Shown one piece after another: positions 9,148 through 15,744 of a DNA stretch of 20,420 bases. Source of the stretch: a virus. Under the pieces are notes generated by a model. That model was not told the DNA's origin. It was given only the letters and a program-made list of their open reading frames with translations, and searched no databases. Position numbers and translations under genes: made by a program. Every line of letters begins with the position of its first letter. The first letter of the stretch is position 1. The stretch is taken from positions 1 to 20,420 of IMG/VR virus record IMGVR_UViG_3300049846_000223. One strand, written 5' to 3'.

Positions 9148-9400
9148 AAACTGGTGGTATGTGTGGAGCAAGGCTCTTGGGGAGAAGGCATCATCGTGCA
9201 ATAAAACATCCGATAAGGTTGCAGTTGTTCGTACCATCATCTTTGCAACCTATTTGATTACCAACTGCTTCATCGTGGCAGGAGTGTTGAGACAGTGGAA
9301 TCGAAATACTGCGGTGCATGTGTATATTGATTCTTCAGAGATTCGACCTTATTTGACACCACCAGAACGTAAAGTAAATAAACCTTTAGAGTTTGAATAA
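9134..9400 (+). CDS. single-pass membrane protein (88 aa)
   Basis: Residues about 30-52 (VVRTIIFATYLITNCFIVAG) form one membrane helix after a basic N-terminus (MKKPKNWWYVWSKALG), predicting N-in topology. The C-terminus ends with TPPERKVNKPLEFE, sharing PPERK with the 7698 product. It immediately precedes the glycosyltransferase (TAATG overlap) and could anchor or regulate envelope modification, but that is guesswork. Confidence 0.65.
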   Translation: MKKPKNWWYVWSKALGEKASSCNKTSDKVAVVRTIIFATYLITNCFIVAGVLRQWNRNTAVHVYIDSSEIRPYLTPPERKVNKPLEFE

Positions 9401-10950
9401 TGACCGCAACGATTGGAATATCTTTATATCAAAAACCGATTCAATATGTAAGGAAATGTATTGAGAGTGCATTAGATCAAACAGCAGATGTTCGGATCAT
9501 TCTAAGAACTGATGGGCCTAATGCTTGCGATAATGTAACTCTAACCTTTCTGAAAGAACTGGATAGGTCAATAAGTAACTTCACATTTATTGAAGGTAAG
9601 ATTAACTATGGAATCTATGGATCTTATCGTGAAATATTCAAAAATGTAACGACAGATAATCTATGTCAGTTAGATGCTGATGACTATCTACATCCAGAAG
9701 CAATCGAAACGTGTGAGAGAGTATTAAACTCTCATCCAGAGTATTCTATGGTTTACACTGATTGTATGGAGGTTGATAGTGAAGGAAAAGAACTGAAGTT
9801 GTGTGAGAAACAACTGATACGATTTACACCAGAAAATCTTGTTGCTGAGTTTATGACTTATCATCTTCGGTTGATAAGAACTCGGGTATATAATGCTGTC
9901 GGTGGATATGATGAGACTCTAAAATATGGTGGAGATTATGATCTATCTCTTCGTATATCTGAGATTGGTATGGAACAAAACATAGGATATATTCCACTGC
10001 CTTTATATTATTACCGAAGAGATGAGAACTGCCACTCACTCACTGATGGCATCATCGACTCAAATCTTGATTGCTATACTGCAAAGAAGAACCACTTTAA
10101 GAGAACAGGAAACGTTGAAAAAGTAAAAGTTATTCCCAATAAAGATTTCAGTCAGTTTATATTTGCTCCCAAGATTTCTTCAGAAGAATATAATAAACTT
10201 GATGTAATGAAGTCGCAACCAATCGTATTGACTGGGATGCATCGTTCCTTTACATCTTTGACATCTAATATTCTAACTGAACTTGGAATCTACATGGGTG
10301 AGAGTATACTTGAACCTGATGAGTTTAACCCTGAAGGATACTTTGAGAATGTAGATTTCTTACACTTTGACAGAACATTATGCAACTTCTGTATGGATAA
10401 TGAGAACTCATTTCCTGATTGGGGATGGAGTCCTGATGCAAAGATGGATGCAGATAGAGTCAAAGAGTTTGAAGAGTATGCAAAGAATTTAATCTATGAT
10501 CGTAGAAGGTTGAGAGTCTGGGGATGGAAAGATCCTCGTACTTCTTTACTGTTAAACTTCTGGGATCCTATCATCCCTCATGCAAAATATATCTTTGTTT
10601 ATCGTCATCCCGCAGAAGTATTTGCATCTGTAAGTAATCTTAAGGGCATAGAACTATTCCAACAAAATCCAGAATACATCGAAAAGTGCTGGCAAGATCA
10701 TAATCGAAACATCGTAGAGTTTGCATCAAAGAACAGAGATCGTTGCCTGGTTATTAACACCAACAATCTCATCAAGAATCCAAATGCAATCAAACCACTC
10801 TTAACTGATAAGTTTGGATTGTACATTTATGATGAAAACCTTGAAAATCTTGTGGTTTCTGATCACATTCGATCCGAGGGAGATGCTGAGTTATCATTAG
10901 AAACTGTGAGCATTTATGATCAATTAGAGCAAATGAATGAGTTATTCTAA
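9400..10950 (+). CDS. GT2 glycosyltransferase fused to sulfotransferase-like domain (516 aa)
   Basis: The largest gene in the window. Residues 1-230 are a GT-A family 2 glycosyltransferase: ATIGISLYQKPIQYVRKCIE strand-helix start, RTDGP, the metal-binding DAD at 92-94 (LCQLDADDYLHPEA), and GGYDETLKYGGDYDL, the usual acceptor-loop region. Residues about 275-510 look like a P-loop sulfotransferase: TGMHRSFTSL at 278 onward as the 5'-phosphosulfate loop, WGWKDPR at about 374-380, and VYRHPAEVFASVSN at 400 onward as the 3'-phosphate-binding strand. Together they suggest transfer of a sugar and then a sulfate onto a glycan, needing host nucleotide-sugar and PAPS. Target unknown (virion protein, host surface polysaccharide or DNA). 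It ends in the late box CTAAATA. Confidence 0.8.
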   Translation: MTATIGISLYQKPIQYVRKCIESALDQTADVRIILRTDGPNACDNVTLTFLKELDRSISNFTFIEGKINYGIYGSYREIFKNVTTDNLCQLDADDYLHPEAIETCERVLNSHPEYSMVYTDCMEVDSEGKELKLCEKQLIRFTPENLVAEFMTYHLRLIRTRVYNAVGGYDETLKYGGDYDLSLRISEIGMEQNIGYIPLPLYYYRRDENCHSLTDGIIDSNLDCYTAKKNHFKRTGNVEKVKVIPNKDFSQFIFAPKISSEEYNKLDVMKSQPIVLTGMHRSFTSLTSNILTELGIYMGESILEPDEFNPEGYFENVDFLHFDRTLCNFCMDNENSFPDWGWSPDAKMDADRVKEFEEYAKNLIYDRRRLRVWGWKDPRTSLLLNFWDPIIPHAKYIFVYRHPAEVFASVSNLKGIELFQQNPEYIEKCWQDHNRNIVEFASKNRDRCLVINTNNLIKNPNAIKPLLTDKFGLYIYDENLENLVVSDHIRSEGDAELSLETVSIYDQLEQMNELF

Positions 10951-10953
10951 ATA
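10947..10953 (+). promoter_or_regulatory. late promoter box (TCTAAATA) overlapping stop codon
   Basis: TCTAAATA matches the T4 late box in 7 of 8 positions and sits 18 bases before the ATG at 10972, spaced as expected. Its TAA is also the stop of the glycosyltransferase. Confidence 0.55.
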
Positions 10954-10971
10954 ATCAAAAAGATAGAAAAG

Positions 10972-11190
10972 ATGAAAACTTTTAGACAATTTTGTGAACA
11001 AGTTGTGGGCGGAAGAATGCAATCTGCAACACCACAACAAACTGCTCAACAAAGGTCTCAAAGTGTCAAGAGAGCAACAACAATTAATCGTCAGTTAAGA
11101 ACGAGATCTCGTGATGAACTTGATGCACATCAAGCAAACATGAGAACTCTACTGAAAAAGAGTGAAGAAGACATCAGAGGTTCTCACTGA
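10972..11190 (+). CDS. putative capsid internal protein with T4-like targeting N-terminus (72 aa)
   Basis: Begins MKTFRQFCEQ, close to the capsid-targeting sequence of T4 internal proteins (MKTYQEFIAE, from memory), which directs them into the prohead core before cleavage by the gp21 protease. The remainder is Gln/Arg/Thr-rich and basic (ATPQQTAQQRSQSVKRATTI). A late promoter lies directly upstream. Inference: a protein packaged with the DNA and injected into the host. The parallel with the 11667 gene strengthens the case. Confidence 0.65.
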   Translation: MKTFRQFCEQVVGGRMQSATPQQTAQQRSQSVKRATTINRQLRTRSRDELDAHQANMRTLLKKSEEDIRGSH

Positions 11191-11192
11191 TA

Positions 11193-11226
11193 AAAGTTAC
11201 TCACCTCGAAAGTGTACCTATAATGT
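11193..11226 (+). promoter_or_regulatory. 34-bp promoter cassette, copy 2 (CTCG type, perfect TATAAT)
   Basis: Same blocks as the other copies but with TATAAT at 11219-11224, the sigma70 consensus, which supports reading the TATAGT of the other copies as a -10. Followed by GTA, so no start codon is formed; the gene starts at 11243. Confidence 0.75.
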
Positions 11227-11242
11227 AAGCACGAAACCACTT

Positions 11243-11383
11243 ATGAACGACGATCTCTGGTCCGAAATCCAAGATGCTCCTGGTGAGATCTTTGATCTCC
11301 CAGAGATGAAAGGATGGGATGATGATATTGATATGGATGATCTTTCATTCACTGAAAACTTTAATTCTGAATTTGACTTTTGA
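11243..11383 (+). CDS. very acidic small protein (46 aa)
   Basis: ATG 11243 is preferred over the longer frame from 11162, which would run through the promoter. The product has 11 Asp and 5 Glu among 46 residues with a single Lys (MNDDLWSEIQD..., WDDDIDMDDLSF). Such charge is typical of DNA-mimic or polymerase-binding phage proteins, but no family is recognised. First gene after cassette copy 2. Confidence 0.65.
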   Translation: MNDDLWSEIQDAPGEIFDLPEMKGWDDDIDMDDLSFTENFNSEFDF

Positions 11384-11388
11384 TTCTA

Positions 11389-11592
11389 ATGACTGACACT
11401 GTAAATGTTCTGCCTCACATCAAAGAACTTCGTGAGACTTGGAGGAAACAAGATTTCACCTTCACTCGTGAGCAACAAGAACAATACGATCTCTTGATTA
11501 CTGCTCGTCGTGAACGTGTAAAATACTTTTACGATAATGATATGGTATGTAAGATTAGTAAATCTGCACAAGATAAACTAAAAGAAGATTGA
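11389..11592 (+). CDS. hypothetical helical protein (67 aa)
   Basis: ATG 11389 starts 5 bases after the previous stop. MTDTVNVLPHIKELRETWRK, then REQQEQYDLLITARRERVKY: two charged helices. It resembles a small cyanophage protein seen elsewhere, function unknown. A strong hairpin terminator follows. Confidence 0.7.
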   Translation: MTDTVNVLPHIKELRETWRKQDFTFTREQQEQYDLLITARRERVKYFYDNDMVCKISKSAQDKLKED

Positions 11593-11598
11593 TGCTCG

Positions 11599-11626
11599 GG
11601 GTGGTCGGTTGAAATACTGACCACCC
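11599..11626 (+). terminator. terminator hairpin after early operon
   Basis: An 11-bp stem with one G-T pair, GGGTGGTCGGT (11599-11609) against ACTGACCACCC (11616-11626), 6-base loop, followed by TCTCTT. It separates the copy-2 operon from the late gene at 11667. Confidence 0.75.
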
Positions 11627-11633
11627 TCTCTTG

Positions 11634-11640
11634 CTAAATA
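11634..11640 (+). promoter_or_regulatory. late promoter box (CTAAATA)
   Basis: CTAAATAC 26 bases before the ATG at 11667, right after the terminator. Same core as the box at 10947-10953. Confidence 0.55.
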
Positions 11641-11666
11641 CCTGAAAAGGGTTTAGTGTAGAGAAA

Positions 11667-12323
11667 ATGAAAACTTTCCAAGAGTTCATGGTTTTTTGTG
11701 AAGAAGTTGAAGATAAATCTAAAGCACTTGGATATGCTGCAACTATTAGGCGTGCTCGTCCTGGTGGAAGAGTAGGTGCAGAACGTAAGAAATCAACACC
11801 TGAAAAACGCAGAATGAAGGCAGTGGGTGGTGGAAAAATGGCACCCGTAGAATATAAACCCCGCAAAGATATTGGAACTCAACGTCAGGCATCTACAAGA
11901 GTTCAGCAACCAACTCAGGAAAGAGGTTCTGCAAGAGAAAGACAATTAGCAGCAGCAAAGGAAGAAAGAAGAAAAGCAGCACAAGCAAGAATTGCAGCAA
12001 AGAAAGCAGGTGCAAAACCTGAAGCAAAGAAAACAACATCTAAAGAAGCAGAGAAGACTGCAACTAAATTACTTGCTAAGAAGAAAGCAGAAACACCAAA
12101 ACCAGCAGCAAAACCACGTAGAGAGTGGAAACATGAGACTGGTGGTGGTATGACTCGTGCAGAGAGAGATAAAGCACGCAACAAAGAAAAGGGTGAAGCA
12201 CTCAAGAAGAGAAAGGCAGAACTGATTAAGGATTTCACTGAAAAGCATGGCAGAGCGCCTAAAGGAAAAGAGAGAACTAAACTGCTTGGTTTAGCACATG
12301 GGACTGTAAAGGCAGGAGTTTGA
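11667..12323 (+). CDS. putative capsid internal protein, Lys/Ala-rich, T4-like targeting N-terminus (218 aa)
   Basis: Begins MKTFQEFMVFCEE; the first seven residues differ from T4's MKTYQEF only by F for Y. The body is extremely basic and low-complexity (KAAQARIAAKKAGAKPEAKK, TKLLAKKKAETPKPAAKPRR), similar in composition to histone H1 tails, and ends with a helix rich in Lys. This fits a DNA-condensing internal protein packaged in the head and possibly injected. A terminator and late box upstream make it a separate late gene among early ones. No catalytic motif is visible. A prohead-protease site near CEE is possible but does not match the T4 consensus exactly. Confidence 0.7.
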   Translation: MKTFQEFMVFCEEVEDKSKALGYAATIRRARPGGRVGAERKKSTPEKRRMKAVGGGKMAPVEYKPRKDIGTQRQASTRVQQPTQERGSARERQLAAAKEERRKAAQARIAAKKAGAKPEAKKTTSKEAEKTATKLLAKKKAETPKPAAKPRREWKHETGGGMTRAERDKARNKEKGEALKKRKAELIKDFTEKHGRAPKGKERTKLLGLAHGTVKAGV

Positions 12324-12356
12324 GAATTACTCACCTCCAAAGTGTACCTATAATAT
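12323..12356 (+). promoter_or_regulatory. 34-bp promoter cassette, copy 3 (CTCC type, TATAAT)
   Basis: Starts AGAATTAC instead of AAAGTTAC, so the outer left end varies. TATAAT at 12349-12354. It begins on the last base of the upstream TGA. No ATG is formed; the gene starts 38 bases further on, the longest leader apart from copy 8. Confidence 0.75.
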
Positions 12357-12393
12357 AATTGCATCAGACCCCTCTAAAATCGTCTGTAACACC

Positions 12394-14805: not shown

Positions 14806-14831
14806 AAGAGGGGTTGCGATCCCTCTTTTTT
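14806..14831 (+). terminator. terminator
   Basis: AAGAGGG (14806-14812) pairs with CCCTCTT (14821-14827), 8-base loop, then Ts. Nearly the same stem as the terminator at 19945-19972. Confidence 0.85.
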
Positions 14832-14847
14832 GTGCGATCATTACATT

Positions 14848-15744
14848 ATGCAAAACAAACACCTTGAACATCCAGAAGATCAAATCCTCACGGGCAATCT
14901 CTCTGTCCTGGATTGGTTTACTGCTGATTCTACTATCAGTGTCAAGATTGATGGTGCTCCCGCTATTGTTTGGGGCACCAATCCTGCCAACGGAAAGTTC
15001 TTCGTTGGAACTAAATCTGTCTTCAACAAAGTAAAGATCAAGATCAATCATTCACATGAAGAAATTGATGCGAACCATGAAGGTAAAGTTGCGACTATTC
15101 TTCATGCTTGCCTTGATTATCTGCCTCGCACAGATTATATCTTTCAAGGGGATTTTATTGGTTTTGGGGGTTCTGATACTTATCGTCCCAACACGATCAC
15201 TTACCAGTTCCCTGAGGTAGTCAATCAAGAGGTCATTATTGCCCCTCATACGTTCTATGTTGCAGAGAATGATCTGAGGGATGCTGTTGCCTATCCGATG
15301 AACTTTATCATCACGGATACTCCTTATGTGAAGTTTGTGTGCCCCAGAGCAGACATTTGCCCTCATCGTGAGGATCTGGAAGACATCAGTAAGTTTGCCA
15401 AACAGATGAGCACTTTGTGTGAGTTTGTGTCTGAACGCAAGGCAACAGAAATCAAAAAAGTTATCAATTCCTACATCCGTGAGGGTAAGGAGGTCGATGA
15501 GCATGAAATTGCAGAAAATTATGATGTTGACATCAACCTGCTGCGTTTGTGGAAGTTGGTGTACTCTATCAAGATGGATTTGTTCTTCTTCATTCGCACT
15601 GATGATAGCATCCAGTGCTCTATTAACGGAGAGAAGTCTGATCATGAAGGTTATGTCATGACCAACAAGTTTGGTATGATGAAAGTTGTTGATCGTCATC
15701 AATTCTCTCGTGCAAACTTCAACATGGTGCGGAATTGGGGGTAA
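14848..15744 (+). CDS. nucleotidyltransferase/ligase-like KxDG protein (298 aa)
   Basis: ATG 14848 is chosen; the frame extends to TTG 14830 but that lies in the terminator. Motifs in order match the covalent nucleotidyltransferase (ATP-dependent ligase/capping) fold: motif I VKIDGAP with Lys33, a FVGTKSVF strand, a motif III-like FQGDFIGFGG, motif IV HEGYVM with Glu267, and motif V MMKVVD with Lys279. A C-terminal OB domain is not evident at this length. A nucleic-acid ligase or end-adenylating enzyme is therefore plausible. I recall marine phage proteins with the same KxDGAPA start and no assigned function, so it may belong to an uncharacterised ligase-like family. The promoter is not obvious; the leader from the terminator is only 16 bases. 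Confidence 0.7.
   Translation: MQNKHLEHPEDQILTGNLSVLDWFTADSTISVKIDGAPAIVWGTNPANGKFFVGTKSVFNKVKIKINHSHEEIDANHEGKVATILHACLDYLPRTDYIFQGDFIGFGGSDTYRPNTITYQFPEVVNQEVIIAPHTFYVAENDLRDAVAYPMNFIITDTPYVKFVCPRADICPHREDLEDISKFAKQMSTLCEFVSERKATEIKKVINSYIREGKEVDEHEIAENYDVDINLLRLWKLVYSIKMDLFFFIRTDDSIQCSINGEKSDHEGYVMTNKFGMMKVVDRHQFSRANFNMVRNWG

Follow-up and report, generated by a model that had tools for sequence, protein, structure and literature searches.

Two adjoining genes with T4-type capsid-targeting leaders probably encode internal head proteins of a T4-like cyanophage

The 20,420-base viral fragment IMGVR_UViG_3300049846_000223 of IMG/VR (hereafter the window), closest among annotated relatives to T4-like cyanophages (Kyanoviridae), carries two open reading frames (ORFs), here called A and B, that probably encode internal proteins of the phage head (Table 1). 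An initial annotation, made from the sequence alone, had noted that both predicted proteins begin like the internal proteins of T4, that is with a capsid targeting sequence (CTS), that their bodies are basic, and that a CTAAATA box precedes each ATG. All three observations hold at the positions it gave. A begins MKTFRQFCEQ and B MKTFQEFMVFCEE, and their common pattern, MKTF..F, matches the starts of T4 ipI (MKTFKEF) and of ipII and ipIII (MKTYQEFIAE; record AF158101). Both bodies have high isoelectric points (pI) and a net positive charge, and the two CTAAATA boxes are the only copies on the + strand of the window.

Table 1. Features of the window around genes A and B.
Feature	Position	Strand	Remarks
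Gene A	10972..11190	+	72 residues, basic, pI 11.2, net charge +7, Q/R-rich; predicted packaged head protein
Gene B	11667..12323	+	218 residues, pI 10.6, net charge +35, 44% K/R/A; predicted packaged head protein
CTS-like leader of A, MKTFRQFCE	10972..10998	+	cut predicted after Glu9 (putative site)
CTS-like leader of B, MKTFQEFMVFCE	11667..11702	+	cut predicted after Glu12
Basic core of B, conserved, about residues 13-90	11703..11936	+	from the alignment of B proteins
C-terminal module of B, exchangeable	12123..12320	+	two predicted helices, predicted local distance difference test (pLDDT) >90 over most
CTAAATA late-promoter-type box of A	10947..10953	+	begins at -25; 18 bases before the ATG
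CTAAATA late-promoter-type box of B	11634..11640	+	begins at -33; 26 bases before the ATG
Small ORF (ATG start) between A and B	11243..11383	+	outside the leader system
Small conserved ORF, phrog_3262, directly upstream of B	11389..11592	+	
Repeated early-promoter-like element ahead of the small genes between A and B	11202..11231	+	
Repeated early-promoter-like element directly downstream of B	12332..12361	+	
Repeat TTACTCACCTC[GC]AAAGTGTACCTATA[AG]T, all copies	1997, 11202, 12332, 12599, 14557, 15756, 16256, 17878, 18340, 19237, 19610	+	

Judged by conservation, both genes look coding; for A, the changes relative to three relatives fall mostly at third codon positions. A is present at four loci, and a tblastn search with it matched no phage record. 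For B, IMG/VR contains at least 82 relatives, and the gene also occurs in S-SM2 (SSM2_065), SynMITS9220M01, P-TIM68, S-B05, RN05-S, RB11-B and two single-cell marine viruses. Searches of Pfam and PHROGs gave no match for A or B, and when 35 aligned B proteins were compared with PHROGs, two members gave weak matches to unnamed PHROGs (E 0.006 and 0.009).

The leader is far from a chance feature of phage N-termini. The pattern MK.[FLY]..F.{1,4}E stands at the longest-ORF start in 12 of 1714 phage ORFs, a set that includes records retrieved for carrying B; 200 shuffles of the N-termini gave 0.125 on average and 2 at most. The alignment of 35 B proteins shows no variation at M1, F7 or E12; F4 is conserved save for one or two Leu, and the body is basic throughout. 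Among 61 members, residue 4 is Phe in 60 and residue 7 in all 61, and position P3 ahead of the leader Glu is Leu or Ile in 50, counts taken over rows that are kin and not independent. In T4 IPIII, residues 4 and 7 serve targeting and residues 8 and 10 processing, and the motif of the T4 prohead protease is L/I-x-E (PMC9026906). At the two targeting positions (aromatic or Leu at 4, Phe at 7), both window proteins have Phe. The B family keeps residues 4 and 7 and a cleavage-type Glu, and swaps its C-terminus freely.

Several of these features are shared with the T4 internal head proteins, which have an N-terminal MKT[FY]..F leader with an xxE site at its end, and small basic, mutually unrelated bodies behind that one leader, with variable gene content (PMC9026906, PMC3012670). 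Here too, one leader stands on unrelated small basic bodies. Beyond the leader we found no likeness of the bodies of A and B to T4 IPI, IPII or IPIII, a comparison that did not include direct profile alignment with the T4 bodies. T4 Alt, gp67 and other head proteins processed by gp21 also lose a short N-terminal propeptide or are cut at internal x-x-E sites at maturation (PMC9026906), a likeness claimed for the processing scheme only.

The boxes ahead of A and B belong to a signal shared by most of the CTS class. Among 83 distinct CTS upstream regions, 73 have TAAATA within 60 bases, nearly always 25-34 bases before the start. Within this zone, [AC]TAAATA precedes 65 of 70 CTS genes and 64 of 1407 other ORFs; the loci are related and the counts not independent, yet the contrast is large. 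The box also stands ahead of the sheath, portal and scaffold genes and of most other late genes examined in S-SM2, S-CREM1 and S-CREM2. Allowing one mismatch, TATAAATA is not enriched across the whole window (21 occurrences, 23.5 expected); the specific signal is [AC]TAAATA positioned 25-34 bases ahead of a gene. A box of this kind would place the expression of A and B late in infection.

The packaging in the head that the initial annotation had predicted is supported by this common late box, by the presence of a modular leader on unrelated bodies and by the independently published virion proteome of the related cyanophage S-CREM2, in which mass spectrometry detected 52 proteins (PMC10665884, Table 3). 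We translated all 219 annotated coding sequences of S-CREM2 and compared their starts with this list. CTS-like starts were found in gp6, a SAM hydrolase (MKDFDSFLEE), gp13 (MKDLHSFLTEQ), gp14, an APH-like kinase (VKRFDAFLTEE), gp15 (MNFSEFNES), gp136 (MQTFSMFFSED) and gp154, a cytidylyltransferase (MKNFSSFLTEA). With the looser pattern, 6/6 such proteins are in the virion (hypergeometric p = 1.4e-4) and with a tight pattern 4/4 (p = 0.003), both p-values being optimistic since the patterns were set after inspection of the S-CREM2 starts. Moreover, the Cas9-like gp12, also detected in the virion, contains RFASFMAEA within its annotated N-terminus. Had such starts been common among cytoplasmic proteins, the prediction would have lost its footing; among the S-CREM2 proteins missing from the virion list, no full CTS-like start occurs, and the single loose match, gp51, is without the tight pattern. 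ATAAATA lies at -26 to -29 of gp6, gp13, gp15, gp136 and gp154. A further case is the T4-GC190 family (cytidylyltransferase), a virion protein in S-SM1 (PMC3037559), which starts MKSFFQFLSEA in S-SM2, MKRYTNFLSEA in S-CREM1 and, in S-CREM2 gp154, with the leader given above, the S-CREM proteins being placed in this family via phrog_395.

The packaged enzymes of S-CREM2 (SAM hydrolase, APH-like kinase, cytidylyltransferase, Cas9-like nuclease) resemble A and B in their type of leader, and most of them also have a late box heading the gene or operon; they differ in being large enzymes, whereas A and B are small basic proteins. The authors of the proteome suggested that enzymes are encapsulated, and the passages of their paper considered here do not mention a targeting sequence (PMC10665884).

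Two observations on gene order in these phages may be added. The S-CREM2 region encoding gp12-gp15 (L091:7704-13331) consists of two late-box gene pairs, each headed by a small CTS-led protein: gp13 stands ahead of the Cas9-like gp12, and gp15 ahead of the APH-like gp14, both of the latter being large virion enzymes. In S-CREM1, SCREM1_177 and SCREM1_179 (L098:9282-9611 and 10886-11161), near the terminase genes, start MKSYKQFLSES and MKTYNDFITEV and are candidate packaged proteins.

In many relatives, a second late-box gene with a CTS-like start lies within about 1.4 kb upstream of B. The body found in this slot is either that of A or one assembled from three modules, namely M1 (GKK..AV.GT), M3 (Q.P.M.PN...KAI[ML]SR) and M2, which is charged and resembles a coiled coil. 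The arrangements observed are CTS-M1, CTS-M3, CTS-M2-M3, CTS-M1-M3 and CTS-M1-M2-M3, and one locus (L090) has CTS-M2-B. The slot of A also houses a 63-residue family that starts MKTFQQFME/Q (slash, putative cut), and hhalign aligns A with the M3 family over the first 16 residues only. When module starts were searched without regard to the preceding residue, so that Glu was not required, Glu preceded them in 15/15, 9/9 and 6/6 distinct contexts (30/30). A comparable joint occurs outside the slot, in SSM2_108 of S-SM2 (L096:31377-31805), encoded between gp16 and gp17: its CTS-like leader, MKTLKQFLKE, runs into a stretch that looks like the beginning of the mature major capsid protein, and the junction lies just past that stretch's own xxE site (GGMIAE/QPTN). 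Prohead protease cuts after Glu, and the simplest reading of these joints is that modules are exchanged at the point where the protease would cut.

Slot proteins built from modules in series, with Glu at every joint, are also what would be expected of proteins that are cut up during head assembly. A and B could then be components of the prohead core like T4 gp67 or IPIII, builders of the scaffold that are cut by the protease, mostly gone before DNA packaging and without a role in the next host. In T4, the CTS binds to the core, and a number of core proteins are cleaved into fragments at L/I-x-E sites (PMC9026906). We consider this alternative improbable: the CTS-tagged proteins of S-CREM2 remain in the mature virion, and the strongly basic body of B, with its swapped C-termini, resembles diversifying DNA-associated or host-directed cargo more than a scaffold.

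Structure prediction was of limited help. The AlphaFold model of B is weak (mean pLDDT 65.5, predicted template modelling score 0.31), with confident helices mainly at residues 164-215, and the bodies of A and B look largely unstructured in the predictions. Foldseek searches of BFVD with B returned a single strong match, an unnamed protein of 220 residues with 50% identity that is probably a B relative, and otherwise noise. A sequence search of the PDB with the C-terminal module of B pointed to release factor 2, at chance-level scores, and this match was rejected. The model also places a helix at residues 4-20 of B, with modest confidence, which together with the high charge would suit late cytoplasmic nucleoid-associated proteins whose leader is an amphipathic helix with a different role. 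Such a function appears very unlikely, given the invariance of F7 and E12 in B, the Glu at module boundaries and the presence of the same kind of leader on functionally unrelated virion proteins of S-CREM2.

The best reading is that A and B represent a cyanophage counterpart of the T4 internal-protein system and are likely synthesized late, as internal proteins of the head of a T4-like cyanophage. Their carriage in the head is very probable, and their injection into the host is possible, by analogy with T4 alone. In such a scheme, gp55-type late transcription would start from the CTAAATA boxes, the MKTF..F leader would bind the prohead core and bring the basic body into the prohead, and cleavage by a gp21-type prohead protease behind the conserved Glu, which is E9 in A and E12 in B, would release the body. 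The Lys/Arg-rich body would remain with the packaged DNA, DNA binding being compatible with its charge, and may exit with the DNA at infection. The locus would thus act as a cargo bay, with B as the constant occupant bearing swapped C-termini and an upstream slot that takes interchangeable CTS-led modules, A among them.

As a refinement of this proposal, A and B might be ejected counter-defence proteins, following the precedent of T4 IPI, which binds and blocks a host restriction or defence enzyme (PMC3012670). The N-terminus of B is kept while its C-terminal modules are swapped among close relatives, and the slot upstream of B swaps whole bodies, both as in an arms race; moreover, CTS-tagged enzymes of S-CREM2 such as the SAM hydrolase could act immediately on entry. 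This possibility is tentative and we do not favour it, since the bodies look largely unstructured, and no target or likeness to a known inhibitor emerged, the Pfam and PHROGs searches with A and B having returned no match.

Several points weigh against the internal head protein interpretation. The window contains no protease, scaffold or capsid genes of its own. P3 is Phe (FCE) in both A and B, unlike the L/I-x-E motif of the T4 protease, and LQTE, where M2 meets M3, likewise departs from the strict rule. The only proteins with this type of start that are known from virions belong to related phages; the kinship of the B rows and the late choice of the CTS patterns, both mentioned above, count in the same direction. 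Finally, the T4 ip genes have no TAAATA box within 60 bases, so the late box is a cyanophage feature. The cyanophage side further differs from the T4 internal head proteins in having two adjoining cargo genes and, in the upstream slot, bodies that are strings of exchangeable modules.

The small phrog_3262 ORF has a counterpart in S-SM2, SSM2_064, which also lies upstream of B there. Ahead of A, positions 9400-10950 encode a family 2 glycosyltransferase fused to a sulfotransferase (Pfam); this gene looks inserted into the slot, because in one relative (L009) the late box and A come directly after the end of the preceding gene. Further downstream, positions 14830-15744 encode a DUF6267/phrog_455 protein; in its C-terminal part, the phrog_455 profile has a match to the cytidylyltransferase family known from virions. 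The initial annotation had also described early-type promoters at the neighbouring genes and placed A and B beside early takeover genes. A repeat does occur in 11 near-identical + strand copies near the starts of other ORFs (Table 1), and a promoter role for it is conjectural; the layout was fairly described, but takeover is not borne out, as few of the neighbours have a known function. At several copies the ATG begins within a few bases of TATA[AG]T, which suggests very short or leaderless transcripts, or a non-promoter role of the repeat.

The leader and its logic are already known from T4, and a capsid targeting sequence in a cyanophage is not named in the open-access literature searched, where cyanophages and capsid targeting come up together in one review of T4 only, subscription papers lying outside this search. 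More broadly, cyanomyoviruses may possess a general cargo system in which a T4-type leader and a late box mark head proteins. Its slot proteins would be 'beads on a string', basic modules joined at protease-cut Glu residues, one chain being released in the prohead as several packaged proteins and the modules being reshuffled between phages; we hold this wider proposal to be slightly short of an even chance. Cyanophages kill many ocean and lake picocyanobacteria, yet little is known of which phage proteins accompany the DNA into the host. If leader and late box do mark cargo, the packaged proteins of any sequenced cyanomyovirus could be listed by computer, and the idea could be checked against existing mass spectra.
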